From positions 1 to 48,975 of IMG/VR virus record IMGVR_UViG_3300005466_000035: a DNA stretch of 48,975 nucleotides. One strand, written 5' to 3'. Numbering within the stretch: the stretch's first letter is position 1; every line of letters begins with the position of its first letter. The notes beneath the pieces were generated by a model, which worked only from the letters and a program-made list of their open reading frames with translations, was not told where the DNA came from and ran no database searches. Shown in pieces: positions 2,910 through 48,868 of this stretch. The translations under genes and the position numbers were made by a program. The stretch is from a virus.

Positions 2910-5566
2910 GCCCCAAAGACTCCAGGGACCTAGTACCGGAGCAGCAGCAGGCGTGGTTCGACGGCTTGCCCGAGGAAGCCCGTAAGGCGGCGGAGCGCGC
3001 CGAGCTGGACAAGAACCTGCCGGTCCTCGCTTCGATCATGCAGGAGGTCGGGGTCGCTGGTCTGTGCGCCTGGGCTGCCTACCTCGACGTAATGGAGAGC
3101 GGCAGCGTTGACCCGTTCGACATGGGCGAGATCGTCGGCGCGGCCGTCCCCACGATCAAGCGCTCGGTCGAAAAAGAATCAGCGGAGCGCCTCAAGGAAG
3201 TAGACCGCCAGCGGGAGGAAGAACGGGCTCGGTACAGGCGCGAGAAGAAGCGGCGGAAGAAGGCCGAGGGGGCGAAGCGCCGTTGGAAGCGCCACCACGG
3301 CCAGCAGGTAAGGCGGGTGCAGCAGCTCGCCGAGTCTCTCGCCAAGGCGGTTGATGACCGGCGGTCCAACTTCAAGCGCTGGCAGGAAGACCTTCGCGTC
3401 CTCACCGCCCTTCAAAACCGGGTCACGAAAGTTCGGGCAGAGGCGAGCCGCCGACTCGAAACCGCAGAGGCCGAGCTTGAAGGCCCGGGCGCCTGCGAAG
3501 CGGACACCTACGTAGCGAAGACCTGCCGCGACCTCTTAGCGATTCTCGATACCCAGCCCTCTTCCAACCCGCCCCAGCAGGACCCCGCCGATGGCTTACC
3601 GCCGGAACTGGTCAAGGCCCTGCGCGATCCGGGCGTCACGATCCAGGCCGACCACGACACGAGGCTCGCCAACGGGCAGACGCTCGCCGAGCACCTGGAG
3701 GAATGGCGGAACGCGCCAAGCAACACCGCCAGCTCTATCTCCCCGCCCCAGCAGGACCGTGAGGACGGGGACGACTTCTGCGAGCGCTGCAACGGGAGCT
3801 TCGGCGAGATCGGTTGCGAGCACTGCAACCCGGCTGCCTACGTGGGGCTCTACAAGCGCGAGCGAGACGTTGAACGCGCCCACGTTGTCGAGCTTATCCG
3901 GGCCGTCGACAAGCACCGCGACACGCTGGACGCAGCCGCTGCCGGTGGTCCTCAACCGCTCGCCCGCGACGACGTGGACAACGCTCTCTACAACACTGCC
4001 CGCACGATCCTCCGCGAGCTGCCGCTTGTCGTTACCCAGCAGCTTTCTACCCAGCCCGAGGCGGACCCCGAGGTACCGGGAATCACCGGACACGAGATAG
4101 AGCCCGTTGCCGATGAGCTGGTGGCGGACCCCGAGGTACCACGGTGCGGTGAGGAGCTGGCGAAGACGATCCATGAGCGGGTATGGGGGCGAGACGCGGA
4201 GCACCCGGTGCATGGCGACTGGGAGCGGATGGCCGACGACTACCGGCAACGGATGGTCAAATCTGTCCGGCTCCTGGGCAGGTTGTTCGCCGAGTCACTG
4301 CAAGCCAAGGCTGCGGTTCAGCGGCAGATCCAAGACGACGAGCTCGAGCGGCGTCGGCCGGGGGCACCGGTCACCACCGCCGAGCATCGGGCCGACGCGA
4401 AGCGCATCGCTTTCGAGGAAGCGGCTCAGATACTCGACTGCCAGCCCACCCCCGAGCTACTGGGGGAGGAGAAAAGCAGCGACGAGGAGAAGGCGGTCGA
4501 TGTCCTGCGGCGCTTTATGTGCTGCAAGGCGGGCGAGCAGTTCGTTGACGAGAAGCTGCTACGGCCGTTCGGGTTCACGCTCGACGCAGGGCCGGTGGTC
4601 CGGGCCAACCGGAATCTCATCGACGCCTTGGAGTGGATCGAAGCCGAGACGGGTGAGCAGCACGTGCGGGACGCCGCCCGCCGCGCAGTCGACGCTGCCG
4701 CCTCCACCCAGCCTGTTTCGGAGTCACCGGGGGACAGCGGGGATCGGCTCGTTGCTGTGCTCCACGCGCTCAACGACTCCGACGTGGTGCTTGACGCCGC
4801 GCTGAAGAGGTTCGAGCAGGTGACCGAGACGGAGGACGTTCGTCGAGGCATCGAGCACGCCCTTGACACCGCCGTCTTCTCCGCCCGCACGATGGTCGAA
4901 ATCGACGGGGCGCCGACCGAGTGGGAGTGGGCCAGGCACACCCTCGAAGAGCACGGCGAGGAAGCGATGCCCGCCGGGACCAAGGATCAGATCGAGAAGC
5001 TCACCGAAGTCTGCCCGGAGTGCGAAGGCGAGGGCGGCGGCAGCGGGATCGACGAACCCACTTGGACTTGCGACCGCTGCGAAGGGCTCGGTCGCGTCAC
5101 GAAGGCCGCCAACCTCACCCAGCCAGTACCAGGGAACAGCGGGGAGGGGCCGGAGTTCACGGTCAACGCGCCGGGCGAGCTTTCGCCAAAGGACCACCAG
5201 GAAGTCGGGGAGCTGGTGAAGCTCGCCCACGCGAAGATGGCACCGGGATCGCTAGCCGCAGGCGTGGCTGCCCTGCGAGATGAACTGCGCGAGCTGGTGG
5301 AGCGCTTCGCACCGGCGCCGCCCCCGAACATGCCGCCGTCGGACCGCGCAGAAGGCGTCCGGGCCGTGCGTCGAGAGATAGCCGATCGCCTAGATGCGCT
5401 ACTCGCCACCGCCTCTACTCAGCCTCCCTCACCACAGGCCGAGGCAAAGTGCAAGCGGTGTCAGGATCGGCGCGTCGTTTATGAGCCGGGGACGCTTCAG
5501 ACGCACCCGCCCAGAGTCGGTTGCAACGTCCCTTGCCCCGACTGCACGGGCGGTGAGGGGCGATGA
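2906..5566 (+). CDS. Large modular coiled-coil/zinc-knuckle protein, 886 aa
   Basis: No single family fits. A highly charged coiled coil covers about residues 80-200. The rest is helical modules separated by low-complexity Thr-Gln-Pro linkers (about residues 214, 375-381, 600, 737 and 837). Three Cys clusters look metal-binding: CERCNGSFGEIGCEHC (about 291-306), a DnaJ-like CPECEGEGGG...CDRCEGLG (about 703-730) and a C-terminal CKRCQ...CPDC (about 849-880). It is far larger than its neighbours and may be a fusion of former small genes. ATGA overlaps occur at both ends. A scaffold or nucleic-acid-binding role is possible but not shown. Confidence 0.6.
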   Translation: MSPKDSRDLVPEQQQAWFDGLPEEARKAAERAELDKNLPVLASIMQEVGVAGLCAWAAYLDVMESGSVDPFDMGEIVGAAVPTIKRSVEKESAERLKEVDRQREEERARYRREKKRRKKAEGAKRRWKRHHGQQVRRVQQLAESLAKAVDDRRSNFKRWQEDLRVLTALQNRVTKVRAEASRRLETAEAELEGPGACEADTYVAKTCRDLLAILDTQPSSNPPQQDPADGLPPELVKALRDPGVTIQADHDTRLANGQTLAEHLEEWRNAPSNTASSISPPQQDREDGDDFCERCNGSFGEIGCEHCNPAAYVGLYKRERDVERAHVVELIRAVDKHRDTLDAAAAGGPQPLARDDVDNALYNTARTILRELPLVVTQQLSTQPEADPEVPGITGHEIEPVADELVADPEVPRCGEELAKTIHERVWGRDAEHPVHGDWERMADDYRQRMVKSVRLLGRLFAESLQAKAAVQRQIQDDELERRRPGAPVTTAEHRADAKRIAFEEAAQILDCQPTPELLGEEKSSDEEKAVDVLRRFMCCKAGEQFVDEKLLRPFGFTLDAGPVVRANRNLIDALEWIEAETGEQHVRDAARRAVDAAASTQPVSESPGDSGDRLVAVLHALNDSDVVLDAALKRFEQVTETEDVRRGIEHALDTAVFSARTMVEIDGAPTEWEWARHTLEEHGEEAMPAGTKDQIEKLTEVCPECEGEGGGSGIDEPTWTCDRCEGLGRVTKAANLTQPVPGNSGEGPEFTVNAPGELSPKDHQEVGELVKLAHAKMAPGSLAAGVAALRDELRELVERFAPAPPPNMPPSDRAEGVRAVRREIADRLDALLATASTQPPSPQAEAKCKRCQDRRVVYEPGTLQTHPPRVGCNVPCPDCTGGEGR

Positions 5567-8471: not shown

Positions 8472-9157
8472 ATCTTGCCGCCGCTCTGCGCGATAGGTTG
8501 CAGCGACCCCGAGGTACGGCCGAGTGGCATCGCCTTCCTCCTGGTGTTGACAGAGATGACCCCCGAGCCGTCTGGCAGCGGCTTGCAGGCCGCTCGGCTC
8601 GGGGGGTCTTCGCTCTGCTCGTGCTCGGCGTCCTCTGGCTGGAGTGGTTAACCCGCCGCGATGAAGTGGTCACCATCGACCACGAGTACTGCATCGCTGC
8701 TACCCAGCAACCTGTAGCCGAGGGCCACTCAGTCCAATGTGGCGGGGTCGCCCTCGAACAACTGCTTGGCTGGGTGGAAGAACAGCGGGACGGGGCGAAG
8801 GTCATCGGCGACTGGCTCTCGGGCGTCGACGCGCTCCAGGAAGTCGCTGACGAGATTCGCCGCCGCTCCTCCGGTGGGCAGGAAGGCGAGGTAGAGGAGT
8901 GCGTTATCGAGGGCTGCGAGCTTCGGGGCGGACACAAGGGGCCGCACAAGGCGTGGCGGATCATCGACGCCCCTTACCTCGAAGATCGGGAGCACGTCGA
9001 ACCGTGGGAGGACGAGGTCGCCCGCGAGATCGCCGCGGAAGGCGAGGTAGAGGAGGGGCACCGATGCGAGGGTTGCGGAACGTCGGTAGGTCCCGAGCGA
9101 GGACCCTATCCACCTGACGGCGTGTACCTCTGCAAAGACTGCGAGGGCGAGCCATGA
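8468..9157 (+). CDS. Membrane-anchored early protein with two zinc modules, 229 aa
   Basis: A GTG start with GTGA overlap is preferred to an upstream in-frame start at 8366. One hydrophobic segment at about residues 47-60 (GVFALLVLGVLWLEW) could span the membrane. The region after it contains two similar Cys modules, each preceded by EGEVEE: one around CVIEGCELRGGHKGPH (about 141-156), one around CEGCG...CKDC (about 200-226). Both EGEVEE codings lie in a 19-nt DNA repeat (8881-8899 and 9037-9055), so the gene looks internally duplicated. Function unknown. Confidence 0.6.
   Translation: MNLAAALRDRLQRPRGTAEWHRLPPGVDRDDPRAVWQRLAGRSARGVFALLVLGVLWLEWLTRRDEVVTIDHEYCIAATQQPVAEGHSVQCGGVALEQLLGWVEEQRDGAKVIGDWLSGVDALQEVADEIRRRSSGGQEGEVEECVIEGCELRGGHKGPHKAWRIIDAPYLEDREHVEPWEDEVAREIAAEGEVEEGHRCEGCGTSVGPERGPYPPDGVYLCKDCEGEP
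8881..9055 (+). repeat. 19-nt internal repeat in the 229-aa gene
   Basis: GGAAGGCGAGGTAGAGGAG at 8881-8899 and 9037-9055, in the same reading frame (EGEVEE), precedes each of two Cys-rich modules. It resembles a ribosome-binding region now read as protein, as expected if small ORFs had fused. Confidence 0.75.
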
Positions 9158-9282
9158 GTGACCACCCGTGCGTTTGCGGCCACGCCTTCGATGAGCACGA
9201 CGAGGCCGACGGTCTGATCTGCACGGTCGAGGGCTGCGACTGCTGCTACTTCGACCTCGACGAGAGCGAGGCGCTGTCGTGA
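9154..9282 (+). CDS. Cys-rich micro-protein, 42 aa
   Basis: A short ORF with ATGA and GTGA overlaps on both sides. It reads MSDHPCVCGHAFDEHD and later CTVEGCDCCYF, a CxCGHxFxxH pattern with further Cys residues, which together could bind one or two zinc ions. Similar small Cys/His proteins occur in actinobacterial phages. Function unknown. Confidence 0.65.
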   Translation: MSDHPCVCGHAFDEHDEADGLICTVEGCDCCYFDLDESEALS

Positions 9283-24751: not shown

Positions 24752-26472
24752 TGGCTTCCTTCGCTCTCGCCAACACCCCGTTCCCTGATGACACCGAGGT
24801 AGGCGCCTGGGACGCGACGGGTTTCTCGGTGCTGCCCACCAATGGTCCGCTTGGCGATGCTGTTACCACCGCTACCGCCAGCGGCCGGTCGGTCTCATTC
24901 ACCGGCCTTAAAAACGCTACGCCCTATTTCGCAGCGGCGTTTGTTGACGGGAAGTGGCTCTGGAGGCGGTTCATGACCTCCGCCGCCTCCGAACCTGAAG
25001 CGTGGGAAAACGCGTTGGCCGGTCTTGGTCTTGCTGATCTGTCCGACGTCGCCGTCGGCTCGCCAGAGGCTGGGGACCTGATCGTCTTTGACGGCGCTAG
25101 CTGGGTTCGGGTCCCCAAGGGTCAGCCCGGCGAATCGATGATCTTTCACAAAGACGGGACCGTGACCCACGACCGGTCGATCATCTATGCCAAGGGCTGG
25201 GGCGTTACCGGTAACGAATCTGCCGGCGAAGGGGCAGCGGCCAATGAAGCTCTCGCGGCTGCGAGCGCCAGCCCGGCCGGTGCGGAGGTGAAGTTCCCCA
25301 CGGGGACGATCCTTTGCGAGGAGACCGTCGAGAACCGCGCCCGCTGCTGGTTCAACGGATCGGGGCCTGGGACGGTGTTCAAGGCGGCGGCGGGGCTGAA
25401 CGCTGACGTCATCTCAACTCTCGAAGCTGGCGCCGGAGGGCAAGACGAATGCATGTGGTCTCACTTCACGGTCGACGGCAACGGGACGAACAACACGGCC
25501 GGGCGGGGCTTGGTGATGGACTCCCGCAAGGGGCGGGCATGGGGCATCGCCGTCCACTACTCTTATGAAGACAACATCGTCCAGACGCGCAGCGCGGCCG
25601 AGCAGACCAAGGAGTACGGCGGCTCCGATTTCCACATCGACCGCTGGCTGGCTTGGGGCTCGAAGACCGGCAACGGCCTGACGATCGACTCGAACGATGT
25701 CGTCGTCGGGTCGGGAACCAGCATCTTCAACGCGAAAGCGAACTTCGAAAACACCGCCAAAGGCTCGGCGGTTGTCCTGAAGGGCGTCCATAGCTGGGGC
25801 GAATGCGAATACGGCTTCCGTTTCAAAGGCTCCTTCAGCGCGACCCAGTGCCAGTCCGAGGGGGCTACGAAAGCCCTTGTGCGATGCGAGGCTGGCGGCA
25901 CCTGGACCGGGGGGCAGGTCTTCACCTCCACCTCCGCTCGCAATGTGCCGGGATTCGAAGTCACCGCCAACGCCGCCCGGATCGTCGTCATCGGCTGCGT
26001 GGGCAAAGAACTCGGCACCGGGGGAATGTTCCGAGCCTCCGCCGCCTCCGCAGGGTCCGGTTCGATCATCTCGAGCTGCACCTGCGATCAGGGCAACCTT
26101 TCTGGCGAACATCCCGTCTTTACGGCAGCCGAAGGATCGTCGTGGTCGGGCAACGTCAAGGTGGATGTTCGCTTCAAGGGGTCCGAAGTTATCGCTGGGG
26201 AAGCCTGGCCGGTCTACTCAGTTGTCGCAGCCAACGAACTGGTGATCGAGTCGGCCGCCGCCTACGTTCGAGTCACCGGCGCCACCGAAATCAAACGAGT
26301 GAAACCAACGTTCCCAGGACACGTCGTTCGGTTTCGAATGACCTCAACGGCTAAATGGCTCGACGGAGAAAACCTTCACATCGAAGGCAACTTCGAAGGC
26401 GGCCCCGACCGGATCATCACCGCCGAATGCGACGGCACCAACTGGATCGAGAGCGGGCGGAGCACTAACTGA
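24751..26472 (+). CDS. Tailspike-like beta-helix protein, 573 aa
   Basis: The N-domain (about residues 1-75) is paralogous to the two preceding genes. After a linker, DGTVTHDRSIIYAKGWG and the following repeats (short strands with Asn/Asp/Gly turns, about 140-500) resemble a pectate-lyase-type right-handed beta-helix: SHFTVDGNG, GNGLTIDSND and ISSCTCDQGN coils. Such spikes bind or cut surface polysaccharide. No catalytic residues can be assigned. Cys content is higher than usual for a spike. Confidence 0.7.
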   Translation: MASFALANTPFPDDTEVGAWDATGFSVLPTNGPLGDAVTTATASGRSVSFTGLKNATPYFAAAFVDGKWLWRRFMTSAASEPEAWENALAGLGLADLSDVAVGSPEAGDLIVFDGASWVRVPKGQPGESMIFHKDGTVTHDRSIIYAKGWGVTGNESAGEGAAANEALAAASASPAGAEVKFPTGTILCEETVENRARCWFNGSGPGTVFKAAAGLNADVISTLEAGAGGQDECMWSHFTVDGNGTNNTAGRGLVMDSRKGRAWGIAVHYSYEDNIVQTRSAAEQTKEYGGSDFHIDRWLAWGSKTGNGLTIDSNDVVVGSGTSIFNAKANFENTAKGSAVVLKGVHSWGECEYGFRFKGSFSATQCQSEGATKALVRCEAGGTWTGGQVFTSTSARNVPGFEVTANAARIVVIGCVGKELGTGGMFRASAASAGSGSIISSCTCDQGNLSGEHPVFTAAEGSSWSGNVKVDVRFKGSEVIAGEAWPVYSVVAANELVIESAAAYVRVTGATEIKRVKPTFPGHVVRFRMTSTAKWLDGENLHIEGNFEGGPDRIITAECDGTNWIESGRSTN

Positions 26473-28999: not shown

Positions 29000-29593
29000 A
29001 TGAGCACCGCACTTTTCTTCAGCACGAATCCCGGAGAGACGGAGACCTCCGCGCAAGAGGTCACCTTCATCTCCAAGTGCCCGAATCAGGTGCTCACCCG
29101 TCGCAAGGCTCGCCACATCGAAGACGGCATCGGCGGCAAAAAAGTCGAGGGCTATGAGGAGTGGGTCCAGCGGCAGGAGGACATCAACGATGCCCGGCTG
29201 CTCCGGGGCGATGACCCCCTCCCGATCGACCGGACTCCCTGGAAGGTGGAGTTCGCGCACAACGTCTTCAAGACCGACGACTCGAAGCTCATCAGCTTCC
29301 TGCGAGACCACTGGCTCTTCAACAACCCGCGCGGTTTCTGGGAGATGGGAGCGGCCCCCGATGAGCCGCGCCCGACTATGGATCAGCAGATGACGGCCAT
29401 CGCAGAGGCGGCGGCAATGGGCGACCTCGAGGGGGTCGAAGCAGTCATCGCCGAGGAGAACAACACCCACAAGCGCCCCTCCGTCCTCCAGGTCGCAGAT
29501 GCGGCTCTAAAGAGGCTGAAGGAGATCGACTCCGAGCTGGAGTCTCCTGCGCCTTCCGGCAACGGAGGCGACTCATCAACTGCGGGCAGCTAA
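29000..29593 (+). CDS. Head-completion region protein, 197 aa
   Basis: AAAGGACACG precedes the ATG. An N-terminal beta-rich domain (about residues 1-60, ALFFSTNPGETETSAQEV...) is followed by a helical region (about 115-185). It resembles unnamed proteins that follow capsid genes in actinobacterial phages. The final five codons overlap the next gene and may exist only because of the base change at 29577, which would otherwise give TGA at 29576-29578. Confidence 0.65.
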   Translation: MSTALFFSTNPGETETSAQEVTFISKCPNQVLTRRKARHIEDGIGGKKVEGYEEWVQRQEDINDARLLRGDDPLPIDRTPWKVEFAHNVFKTDDSKLISFLRDHWLFNNPRGFWEMGAAPDEPRPTMDQQMTAIAEAAAMGDLEGVEAVIAEENNTHKRPSVLQVADAALKRLKEIDSELESPAPSGNGGDSSTAGS

Positions 29594-30207
29594 CCACCCG
29601 CCTCAACGACTTCGCGGGCTTTAATCTCTCCGCGGAAGAGGCACGCGACCTGCTGAACGCGGGTCGTGACCGTTTCGCTCTGGAGTCAAAGTACCCCAGG
29701 AAACGGGCGAACCTCGGCCCGACGGTCGCCGGCCAGGCAATTTACGGCTGGCCCGAAGATTTCCTGCTGCCGCTCTCCGTTTCCCTGGGTCTAGGCGCCC
29801 ACTTGGAACCTTCGGACCCCGACACCGTCCGCGAATACGAAACGGGAGCACTCAGGCTCGGGGCGGACCGCGTGTACTACGAGGACCCCGGCGAAGATGG
29901 GATTCGAAAGCTGGTCTTCTACCCCGCTCCTGTCGAAGGCCAGGCGGTGAATCTGCTCTACGTCTTCGCGCCAGAGCCGATGACCGAAGACTCCGACGAA
30001 CCCTCCGAGTTTCCCCGCCCCTTTCACGAAGCCCTTATCCCTGCTGCGGCCGCCCAGTACTACGAGACGGTCGAGGACAATCCGGAACTCGCCCAGCGCA
30101 ACTCCGAACAGCTCGATCTCTGGGTCGGCAAACTCGTTCGCTACGACAACCAGCGCCGCGGCGGGTCAGACCCGTTCATGGTCCCGATTCAGGGGATCTC
30201 AGCATGA
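29575..30207 (+). CDS. Head-tail adaptor-like protein with lost ATG start, 210 aa
   Basis: Frame and composition continue upstream of the first permitted start (TTG 29803). The protein in that extension (TTRLNDFAGFNLSAEEARD, NAGRDRFALESKYPRKR) is the helical head expected of podovirus adaptors. GGAGG at 29564-29568 stands 6 nt before ATC at 29575. If base 29577 were G, ATG would start here and overlap a TGA of the upstream gene (ATGA), like other junctions in this genome. So it is either ATC-initiated, damaged or misread. The shorter product from 29803 would lack about 76 residues. Confidence 0.65.
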   Translation: MNCGQLTTRLNDFAGFNLSAEEARDLLNAGRDRFALESKYPRKRANLGPTVAGQAIYGWPEDFLLPLSVSLGLGAHLEPSDPDTVREYETGALRLGADRVYYEDPGEDGIRKLVFYPAPVEGQAVNLLYVFAPEPMTEDSDEPSEFPRPFHEALIPAAAAQYYETVEDNPELAQRNSEQLDLWVGKLVRYDNQRRGGSDPFMVPIQGISA

Positions 30208-38253: not shown

Positions 38254-38396
38254 CCTACAGGGCCGGACCAAATTCAGCGACGGCCCACAGGCCCATCCAC
38301 ACGAGCACCGCAATGGCGCCGATCAGTGCCAGCGCTTTGATCCACAACGGCGTATCGATGTCTCCCCACATAGGGAGTAAGGGTAGCGCGGCCTGA
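38250..38396 (+). CDS. 48-codon plus-strand ORF, doubtful
   Basis: It starts with an ATGA overlap on the upstream gene and ends sharing base 38396 with the next ATG, so it fits the coupling pattern. The peptide is low-complexity, rich in Ser, Ala, His and Pro, without a recognisable fold. The opposite strand encodes a convincing membrane helix in the same place. Confidence 0.3.
   Translation: MTYRAGPNSATAHRPIHTSTAMAPISASALIHNGVSMSPHIGSKGSAA
38255..38371 (-). CDS. Antisense micro-ORF, 38-aa membrane protein candidate
   Basis: ATG to TAG on the minus strand encodes MWGDIDTPLWIKAL followed by IGAIAVLVWMGLWAVAEF: a Trp-flanked single transmembrane helix filling most of the peptide. It resembles the style of the 44-aa membrane protein at 15244. 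It lacks an obvious Shine-Dalgarno, and it would be the only antisense gene within the late operon. Confidence 0.4.
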   Translation of the reverse strand: MWGDIDTPLWIKALALIGAIAVLVWMGLWAVAEFGPAL

Positions 38397-40372
38397 TGCC
38401 CACGAGCAAATTCAGCAAGGGCTACAAGAAGAAGCCGGGTTCAACTCCGCCGCAGGGACCTCCCCCGGCTCCTCCGAGTCACAGCGGCGGGACCTCCGGG
38501 GACCTCTCGATTCCCGGCTACACCCCTTCGACTCCGACCACGCCCTACAACCCGAGCGCACCCCCGACTCCGGTCCAGCAGCAGATCCGGCACAAACGGG
38601 CGACGCCTTCCACCTCTACCGCCAACCCGCTCGCGGACCAGTACCTGCTCTCCCGCCTGGTCGACCTCGTAACCCCCGGCCCCACGGCCGCTGAGATCGC
38701 TCAGGCCGCCTCCACCCTCGGAGTGAAGCCGAAGGCCCTCAGCGCGGGAGTGTCTAGCGCTGCTGGGGGTGTGAGCGCCGGGATCAAAGAGCTGGGACGA
38801 GACGTAGCCGAAGGCGTGAAAGAGGCGACGAAGCTTCCGGACCACCGGGTCGTGCGCGCCTTCGGTCACAAAACGCTCGGGACCCCAACCCTTCGTCAGG
38901 TCTCCCAGGCTTACGACAAGGGCCAACTGGGGGTCAACCGGAAAGGCAAGCTGACGGTGCCCGCGACGAGACACGCCGCGCAAGGTCTTGCCGCTGCTCG
39001 GAAGGAGTATCGGACGAGAGCCGTACCCCACGTCAGCGGTGTCCCGAACGAAGACCAGAGGCGCTTCGCCATCTCGCTCTCCAAGCACTCAAAGCTCCCC
39101 CTGAAGCTAGCGGCTGAATGGGCACTCCAGGAGGGCGGCGGCTGGGGCTCAGATGGAGTCAGTGGAGGTGAAGCCGGAGAACAGAACTGGCTCGGCGTCG
39201 GCTATCCCGGGGAACCGACGGCCATGAGCCGGTCCCACTATTTCAACGGCGTCACTCCCGAGCAGGCCGGTAAGAACACCGCCCTCTGGCTTGAAGGAAA
39301 GATCGGCGGGGAGTTCGACTACCACGCCGCCGATTCGATCATCGGCATCTCACGCCTAGCCAAGAGCGGGGCGTCGGAAGAAGAGATCCGCCGATACATC
39401 GAAGGACCGTCGGCTTGGGGTACCGGGCAAATATCTCAGTCGGGAGTGACCGTGTCCGGGGGCAAGGCTCCGCCTGCGATTACGCAACAACTCCAGGCGG
39501 CATCCCGCTTGGCCGCCAGCCTCGGTATTCCGACGCACCAAGCAAAGAACGCCGAGCCCGAAAAGCCGCCGTGGCTACTGGCGGGTGGCCCGAAGAACGT
39601 CAAGCACGCAGTCGAAGTTGTCGGCAAGGAGCCACTGAAGAAGTGGTTGAAGCCGACGAACTCCGGAACGGCTGGCTATTGGCGGAACATCGCGACGCTC
39701 AACCCGGTGTTCGCGGGCCAGCTTGTCAAGTTGGCAAAGGCCACGGGGGAACCGATCGTCGTCACTAGCGGCTACCGATCCACGGAGGATCAGGAAGCCA
39801 TCGATCCGGGAACCAACCCGGCGGCGCCCCCCGGCTATTCAGCACATCAATTCGGCATGGCAGCCGACACCGAAATGTCCCAGCGACAGGCGGAACTCGC
39901 ACCCCAGTTCGGGCTTGAGCATGGCGCAGCCGGTCCGGGCGTGGCTGACCCGCCACATACGGAGCTAACCGACATGGGGCTCATCAAGAAGGCGATGCAG
40001 TACGGACCGATCCGATCCGGCTACGCACCTGACGGGTGGCAGTCGGTTGGTGATTTGGGAAGTTTCACGGCTCCGGCGAATCTCGCTGAAGGCGGGGAAA
40101 GCTACGGCGGAGGGGCGGCTACCGGTGCGGCGATAGGCGGTGCGCTACCGACTGCAAGCGGCGGCGGCGCGCCCAGCGTGGCCGCTCAGAAGAAGCAGGG
40201 GATCGCCCCGGCCGTCTCATTGGGTCAGGTCCCCATCAGCTCTCTGCTCGACGTCCACTCCCCGCTCCCGCGGGCATTCCAACAGTTCGAGCTAGGCGAA
40301 GCGCCTGAAGAAGAAGGATCGGGGGTAGACGAAGGCACCATCGCTCGCATCCTCAGGGGGAGGCGGCGGTAA
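38396..40372 (+). CDS. Virion cell-wall hydrolase: glycosidase-like plus M15 peptidase, 658 aa
   Basis: The N-terminus shares a tag with the 1211-aa protein (MPTS..FS.GYK, SGGTSGDLSIP). A lysozyme/glucosaminidase-like domain (about residues 215-350) contains LAAEWALQEGGGWG, with a candidate catalytic Glu, and later WLEGKIGGEFDY. A second domain (about 435-545) has the M15 pattern: VVTSGYRSTEDQ, YSAHQFGMAAD (zinc His and Asp) and DPPHTEL (third zinc His). It would cut both glycan and peptide bonds during DNA entry. Gly/Ala-rich tail. Confidence 0.75.
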   Translation: MPTSKFSKGYKKKPGSTPPQGPPPAPPSHSGGTSGDLSIPGYTPSTPTTPYNPSAPPTPVQQQIRHKRATPSTSTANPLADQYLLSRLVDLVTPGPTAAEIAQAASTLGVKPKALSAGVSSAAGGVSAGIKELGRDVAEGVKEATKLPDHRVVRAFGHKTLGTPTLRQVSQAYDKGQLGVNRKGKLTVPATRHAAQGLAAARKEYRTRAVPHVSGVPNEDQRRFAISLSKHSKLPLKLAAEWALQEGGGWGSDGVSGGEAGEQNWLGVGYPGEPTAMSRSHYFNGVTPEQAGKNTALWLEGKIGGEFDYHAADSIIGISRLAKSGASEEEIRRYIEGPSAWGTGQISQSGVTVSGGKAPPAITQQLQAASRLAASLGIPTHQAKNAEPEKPPWLLAGGPKNVKHAVEVVGKEPLKKWLKPTNSGTAGYWRNIATLNPVFAGQLVKLAKATGEPIVVTSGYRSTEDQEAIDPGTNPAAPPGYSAHQFGMAADTEMSQRQAELAPQFGLEHGAAGPGVADPPHTELTDMGLIKKAMQYGPIRSGYAPDGWQSVGDLGSFTAPANLAEGGESYGGGAATGAAIGGALPTASGGGAPSVAAQKKQGIAPAVSLGQVPISSLLDVHSPLPRAFQQFELGEAPEEEGSGVDEGTIARILRGRRR

Positions 40373-47370: not shown

Positions 47371-47600
47371 TGGGCGTCCTCCTCCAGGGCAACTTCGGTT
47401 GCTTCCGAACCGTGGAGCTGACCAAGGCGCAGTTCGCCGCCCACCCCGAAGTTCGTCGCTCGCGACGCTGGGTTGAGCTGCGGGTCCGAGAAGGACTGCC
47501 TTCCCGGATGGACCGTAATCGTCGTATGTTCCCTCTCGACGAGGGCCTGGCCTGGTTAAAGGACCACGGCTGGCTAGGAAGAGAGAAGGGAGCAGCCTGA
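47370..47600 (+). CDS. Excisionase-like winged-helix protein, 76 aa
   Basis: VELTKAQFAAHPEVRRSRRW, then VELRVREGLPSR, RMFPLDEGLAWLKDHGW (about residues 14-68), is a compact winged-helix with basic recognition segment, as in recombination directionality factors. Size, place directly before int and coupling (TGATG at 47368; GTGA-like overlap with int) support the call. It would bind the att arms and switch the integrase to excision. Confidence 0.7.
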   Translation: MGVLLQGNFGCFRTVELTKAQFAAHPEVRRSRRWVELRVREGLPSRMDRNRRMFPLDEGLAWLKDHGWLGREKGAA

Positions 47601-48784
47601 TGCCGAAGAAGCCGACTACTCGGCTCGGAGTCAAGAAACGGGGGAAGCGCTGGCAGGCACGGCCCTACATCCCCGGAGCCGGCCACAAGTGGGCCGGGAC
47701 TCACGACACGAAGGAGGAAGCGATCGAAGCGGCCGAAACCAAGATCGCAGAGTTCCACACGCGGCCGCCTCGGCAAGAGACGATCACCTCGTTCTCCAAG
47801 CGGTGGATCCGGGACTACCCTCGTCCGAAGGACTCGACCAACGACAACTACAAAGGGGCGGCAAAGCGTTTTCGCGAACGGGTCGACCCGAAGGACAAGC
47901 GCAAGCTCCACGAGTACACGGTCCCCGAGGCACTCGCTTATGCCCGCGACCATCGCCAGGACGCCGCACCGCTACGGACGATGTATTCCGACGCCCGGCG
48001 AGAGGGGCTTGTCAAAGAGATCCCTTTTGCAGAACTTGGCATCCCGAAGAGCAAGGGGCGCAAGGGCATCATCGCTATCACTGAGGAGGAGCTGGACCTG
48101 CTGGTCGAAATCGCTCTTTCCGAGCACGGCAAGTTCGGGCCCCGGTTCGCAGCGATCATCGAGTGGGCGGCTGACACCACCATGCGGCCCGGCGAGATCT
48201 TCGGCCTCGATCGTCCAGACCTGAACCTAAAGGCGGGCAATTGCCGGATCGAGCGCCAGTTCCACAAGCGACGGATTCAGCTACCGAAGAACGGGAAGAC
48301 TCGCGTCCTGCCGTTCATTCCGCCTCGTGCGGAGCGGGCCATCCGGGCCATGCCCCGCCTGATGCCACCGACGATCTGTCCCGAGACTGAAAACGAGATC
48401 CTCTTCCCCGGCAAGAAGGGTCAGCGGATCACGGCGGGTGCGTTGTCCGGCTACTGGGCGCCGGTCCGATCGGCGTTCGAAGCGAGCCTCGATCCGATGC
48501 GGCGTGCTGAACTCAGGGTCGCCCGCGATCCCGAGTCGCCCGAAATGGATTTCTACGAGCTCCGGCACTACGGGGCCACGCAGATGGCCGAGCGGGGGAT
48601 CGAAGACTGGGTCGGTGCAGTGATGATGGGGCAGGAAGATGGCGGCAAGCTCTTCCGCGATACCTACAGTCACCCGTCTCACAAGGTTGCAGCCGAGCGG
48701 CTGCGCGAGGCGTACCGCGATACCCCCGGCGTTTCACGCTTGGCGCCTGCAGCGAATGACCGGGAGGTGGCCTTCGGTGCCTGA
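47600..48784 (+). CDS. int: Tyrosine recombinase (phage integrase), 394 aa
   Basis: N-terminal arm-binding and core-binding domains (about residues 1-150) precede the catalytic domain. Catalytic residues: Arg in DTTMRPGEIF (about 195), Lys in KNGKTR, Arg-His in FYELRHYGATQM (about 317-328) and the nucleophile Tyr in FRDTYSHPSH (about 353-362). The usual His of HxxR is Tyr, and the His of the LGH motif is Gln (MMGQEDGG), both uncommon. Place at the right end, 71 nt before the attR core, fits its role in integrating into tRNA-Asn. Confidence 0.85.
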   Translation: MPKKPTTRLGVKKRGKRWQARPYIPGAGHKWAGTHDTKEEAIEAAETKIAEFHTRPPRQETITSFSKRWIRDYPRPKDSTNDNYKGAAKRFRERVDPKDKRKLHEYTVPEALAYARDHRQDAAPLRTMYSDARREGLVKEIPFAELGIPKSKGRKGIIAITEEELDLLVEIALSEHGKFGPRFAAIIEWAADTTMRPGEIFGLDRPDLNLKAGNCRIERQFHKRRIQLPKNGKTRVLPFIPPRAERAIRAMPRLMPPTICPETENEILFPGKKGQRITAGALSGYWAPVRSAFEASLDPMRRAELRVARDPESPEMDFYELRHYGATQMAERGIEDWVGAVMMGQEDGGKLFRDTYSHPSHKVAAERLREAYRDTPGVSRLAPAANDREVAFGA

Positions 48785-48855: not shown

Positions 48856-48868
48856 CCCACCCCCGGAG
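48856..48868. other. attR core (13-bp direct repeat)
   Basis: CCCACCCCCGGAG, identical to 108-120. It is the original host tRNA 3' end, displaced by integration. Confidence 0.75.

Follow-up and report, generated by a model that had tools for sequence, protein, structure and literature searches.

The SU10-type head–tail adaptor gene of this phage is very likely intact and started at an AUC codon (29575–29577), at which a GGAGG Shine–Dalgarno sequence would place ribosomes, with initiation probably coupled to translation of the upstream gene. As judged by sequence comparison, the AUC start appears to be a conserved feature in at least eight phage lineages. The window is the complete 48,975-base virus record IMGVR_UViG_3300005466_000035, read from 1 to 48,975. 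The following features lie at the junction of the two genes:

29000..29593, + strand: upstream gene, 197 aa, between the major capsid and adaptor genes (open reading frame; ten homologues aligned)
29550..29570, + strand: predicted hairpin, a putative coupling element (CGCCU-U-CCG, GCAA loop, CGG-AGGCG), the 3′ arm of which holds the Shine–Dalgarno sequence
29564..29568, + strand: Shine–Dalgarno sequence GGAGG, read from the sequence, followed by the 6-nt spacer CGACTC (29569–29574)
29575..29577, + strand: inferred adaptor start codon ATC (ATC in 8/10 lineages, GTG in 2/10)
29575..30207, + strand: SU10-type head–tail adaptor gene, 210 aa from the ATC (PF24175, AlphaFold, Foldseek)
29591..29593, + strand: stop codon TAA of the upstream gene, 16 nt past the A of the ATC
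29803..29805, + strand: TTG, first in-frame canonical start codon, at residue 77 within the conserved fold; rejected as the start

The open adaptor frame spans 29365–30207 and has the TTG at 29803 as its earliest ATG, GTG or TTG codon. Between 29365 and 29650, the ATC at 29575 is the sole codon in this frame that belongs to the seven start codons of translation table 11. As far as seen, every other conserved gene of the window has a canonical start close to the conserved N-terminus. Re-reading of the letters confirmed the original prediction that GGAGG is followed 6 nt later by ATC at 29575, and that a G at 29577 would create a TGA (29576–29578) and shorten the upstream gene by five codons. 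It had also been stated that ATGA/GTGA junctions are used throughout the genome; such overlaps do occur at 5563, 20818 and 30204, but "throughout" is overstated. TGATG junctions are found at 26472, 26988, 32636, 33778 and 47600.

By profile and predicted structure, the frame started at the ATC encodes a full-length SU10-type adaptor. The Pfam search matched residues 5–179 to positions 5–173 of the 194-position profile PF24175 (SU10_adaptor) with an E value of 1.8e-17, and the score of 64.8 bits against a gathering cut-off of 27 places the protein in the family over the length of the domain. The AlphaFold model from the ATC has a mean pLDDT of 84 with a helix at residues 3–14, and its best Foldseek match is the SU10 tail structure 7z47_A (E 2.1e-9, probability 1.00, TM about 0.5–0.6). 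The protein therefore shares family and fold with the adaptor of phage SU10 (PF24175; PDB 7z47), a likeness seen at the protein level. Its position also fits the family, since it sits in a head gene cluster with SU10_MCP (PF17236, E 1.5e-36) and SU10_portal (PF23899, E 5.6e-9). Each record gave a single adaptor match, and no further copy with an ordinary start was found.

The N-terminal part of the frame behaves as coding sequence from the ATC onwards. It had been considered beforehand that the 76 residues upstream of the TTG might not be conserved, but the alignment shows that residues 1–76 are conserved among the relatives, and a start at the TTG (residue 77) would cost two helices and three strands. 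Between the window and the relative L005, the differences over residues 7–76 fall 12/11/29 at codon positions 1/2/3, which is a coding pattern, and in the same frame upstream of the ATC they are flat (6/7/8).

Relatives were found by searching viral contigs with the adaptor and capsid profiles. Ten distinct lineages have a readable junction, that is, the window and nine relatives, all metagenomic, whose adaptors are 73% down to 36% identical to that of the window (down to 41% among the ATC lineages). L009 has the same sequence as L008 and was counted together with it, while L003 is cut off before the junction and was left out. The comparison of homologous junctions, proposed in the original prediction as a check, gave ATC at the codon aligned to 29575 in eight lineages (the window, L005, L008, L034, L032, L049, L050 and L051), GTG in two (L033 and L048) and ATG in none, and it supports the suggestion that ATC is used for initiation. 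The two GTG lineages encode free-standing adaptors with GTG at the aligned codon; L048 has a second GTG three codons before it. L032 and L034 have just four open codons of the adaptor frame 5′ of the ATC, after a stop five codons before it, and no ATG, GTG or TTG was found in the 50 codons that follow the ATC. It had further been considered that homologues might lack ATG at the junction and start at the equivalent of the TTG at 29803. They do lack ATG, but that position reads CTG, TGG, GTC, TTT, TAC or TTC in the other lineages and is a canonical start in none of the nine.

The eight ATC lineages form about four deep groups, so the sample of lineages is small. They share 44 invariant residues, of which seven, the ATC start included, use one codon throughout, and no further isoleucine column is invariant. 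Since ATC is the usual isoleucine codon of these GC-rich genes (47 of 52), the conserved position is informative and the choice of ATC over ATT or ATA is not. In the capsid tree, L048 groups with L032 (support 100/100) and L033 with L034 (81/90). Both GTG lineages thus have an ATC partner, and an ATC ancestor with two changes to GTG is the simplest history; by parsimony on this tree ATC is likely the ancestral state of the ten-member clade. Nothing was therefore lost at the junction, and the earlier description of one base change that removes both a stop and a start is misleading. In the next outgroup phage, L052, the adaptor match lies elsewhere (8659–9165), and canonical starts precede the aligned position; since this phage lacks the arrangement, the latter seems confined to the ten-member clade. 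Bacterial genomes and named phages were also searched for relatives and none were found, and for the capsid protein the named relatives are distant only.

The upstream protein is conserved in all ten lineages between the capsid and adaptor genes and gave no significant Pfam or PHROG match. Its AlphaFold model has a core with pLDDT of about 85 and disordered ends, the tail at residues 181–197 falling below 50. The upstream gene overlaps the adaptor gene by its last 19 nt and is in the +1 frame; its stop follows the A of the ATC by 16 nt in seven of the eight ATC lineages and by 19 nt in L008, which is within coupling reach in all eight. The GTG lineages are without the +1 overlap: L048 has its upstream gene in the +2 frame, and L033 has 65 nt between the end of that gene and the GTG. 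The overlap-coded tail is absent in L033. Both changes to GTG thus coincide with loss of the overlap. With G in place of the C of the ATC, the upstream gene would lose its last five or six codons in six of the eight ATC lineages. In L032 and L034 the same change would turn a TCG codon of the upstream gene into TGG and give no stop.

A G-rich Shine–Dalgarno sequence lies 6–7 nt 5′ of the ATC in all eight ATC lineages. Its calculated duplex with the anti-Shine–Dalgarno sequence is about −9.5 to −9.9 kcal/mol in the window, and energies across the eight range from −5.7 to −9.9 kcal/mol; the median at canonical starts in the window is −6.35 kcal/mol (n = 24). Among the 808 ATC triplets of the window, the pairing at this codon ranks in the top 2.5%; in the other seven lineages it ranks in the top 3–13% of the ATC triplets at their own loci. 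The predicted hairpin that would hide the Shine–Dalgarno sequence reaches −13.7 kcal/mol in the window (positions −32 to −1, z −2.4), compared with a median of −6.8 kcal/mol and z of −0.18 for the same region at 23 canonical window starts. It folds individually in all eight ATC lineages (−11.3 to −16.5 kcal/mol, z −0.3 to −2.8), with 36% of shuffled sequences folding equally well for L050 and 12% for L034. Both sides change in four of the eight consensus pairs of the alignment, with a weak consensus energy and an unfavourable covariation term. In the two GTG lineages, the region has z values of −0.24 and +0.63.

Two of the readings offered with the original prediction, a wrong base and a mutated prophage, can be set aside. 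An assembly or sequencing error at 29577, with G as the true base, would restore an ordinary ATGA junction by a single-base change. However, the contig IMGVR_UViG_3300005365_000519, which matches the window exactly over 10 kb and is possibly not independent, carries the same base, and C is present in seven divergent lineages. The error would have had to arise eight times, and this reading has practically no probability left. A decayed prophage, in which the mutated gene is dead or starts at the TTG at 29803, is scarcely more probable. That TTG is the first canonical start in frame, but it lies inside the fold and has a canonical counterpart in none of the nine other lineages; moreover, the neighbouring head genes are intact and conserved, residues 1–76 are conserved and folded, and the ATC is common to the clade. 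Its occurrence across divergent lineages excludes, for practical purposes, both a sequencing error and a fresh mutation. Programmed −1 frameshifting in the overlap, giving an upstream–adaptor fusion protein, is unlikely. Relative to the upstream gene the adaptor is read in the −1 frame, which in the window, L005, L008 and L049–L051 stays open a long way 5′ of the junction, and a Shine–Dalgarno-like GGAGG can stimulate −1 shifting, as such a sequence does in dnaX. Yet the stop five codons before the ATC in L032 and L034 leaves about ten codons for a slip, none of the eight ATC lineages has a classic X XXY YYZ heptamer in the stretch open to such a slip, and L033 and L048 make free-standing adaptors from the aligned codon with GTG. 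A 42-nt block before the junction, identical in L005, was considered as a frameshift signal and rejected, as synonymous changes interrupt it in L008.

Another explanation takes the ATC as the start and bears only on the reason for keeping it: the codon would be retained for the serine codon of the overlapping upstream gene and not for a useful weak initiation. This is quite possible, although we lean against it. Every one of the eight ATC lineages has the +1 overlap, GTG is found in the two that lack it, and the early stop that a G would cause in six of the eight fits such a constraint. On the other hand, the overlap-coded tail is predicted to be disordered and is missing in L033, which makes it unlikely to hold the C, and L032 and L034 keep ATC although a G would give TGG there and no stop.

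Returning to initiation at AUC, the proposed mechanism is as follows. The GGAGG would position ribosomes at the AUC 6 nt downstream. Since the AUC lies within the 19-nt overlap at the end of the upstream gene, initiation is probably coupled: a ribosome finishing the upstream gene would open the predicted hairpin, and then either a new 30S subunit would bind the freed Shine–Dalgarno sequence or the terminating ribosome would step back about 16 nt and reinitiate. The AUC would pair with the initiator tRNA at two positions only and IF3 would discriminate against it, so the adaptor yield should be low. Tail adaptors are present in about twelve copies per particle, and a low yield would fit this need of about a dozen copies per virion against hundreds of capsid subunits. 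From the position, conservation, Shine–Dalgarno sequence, overlap and fold read in the sequence, we infer initiation at AUC, its coupling and a low yield as its selected purpose, and the start is probably set to weak initiation. A wider and tentative proposal, to which we give a little less than even weight, is that the SU10-like clade uses the AUC in the 19-nt overlap, behind a Shine–Dalgarno hairpin, to set the adaptor yield, with selection against AUG across the clade; virion assembly would then perhaps be sensitive to host IF3.

Similar starts are known from bacterial genes. The infC gene starts with AUU in E. coli and with ATC in Streptomyces (PMC5472188); it resembles the adaptor gene in its non-canonical AUN start under IF3 discrimination, but infC is cellular and is regulated by its own product, whereas the adaptor is a phage structural gene. 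The sigR gene of Streptomyces has GTC as its start codon, and IF3 represses it (PMC5472188). As would be the case here, its non-canonical start is kept across a group and sets a product ratio in a coupled operon, although that start is GTC and experimentally proven, while AUC use in the adaptor is deduced from sequence alone. In S. aureus, cvfC1 (AUU) and ccpN (AUA) have conserved starts, extended Shine–Dalgarno motifs and about 10% of the AUG yield (PMC13009471). They share with the adaptor conserved AUN starts directed by a strong Shine–Dalgarno sequence; they differ in being chromosomal genes, and gene overlap and a hairpin are not reported for them in the passages considered. In E. coli, AUC belongs to the seven codons with the strongest initiation (PMC12350097, citing Hecht et al.). 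At high IF3, a purified system made very little product from weak third-base pairings, in a set of pairs without AUC and the CAU anticodon (PMC10158994). Reinitiation and unmasking of the Shine–Dalgarno sequence are well-known routes of coupling, and the MS2 coat/lysis and atpHA pairs likewise have a start near the upstream stop and a hairpin over the Shine–Dalgarno sequence (PMC2268962); the adaptor differs from them in its non-canonical start and in that its coupling is deduced.

Some other observations were made in the window. A tRNA-Asn(gtt) lies at its left end (47–120), and the last 13 nt of this tRNA (CCCACCCCCGGAG, 108–120) recur at 48856–48868, 72 bp past a tyrosine integrase gene (47600–48784). 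The repeats are probably attL and attR of a prophage in tRNA-Asn, in which case the outermost bases of the window may be host DNA. The 658-aa protein encoded at 38396–40372 has a match to VanY (D-alanyl-D-alanine carboxypeptidase) at residues 442–505 and is possibly a virion-associated or lysis peptidase. A gene for 614 aa at 18191–20035, which relatives conserve well (88% in the L008 phage), has TTG as its first start, and the sequence in front of this TTG shows no Shine–Dalgarno pairing (+1.4 kcal/mol).

Very few genes are documented to have a conserved AUC start, and no report of one in a phage structural or morphogenesis gene was found in the open-licence literature. If the AUC start is true, gene callers limited to ATG, GTG and TTG would truncate or miss the adaptor across this phage group. 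The clade, with its two GTG lineages without the overlap, would then serve as a natural experiment on the possible tuning of virion stoichiometry by a weak start codon.
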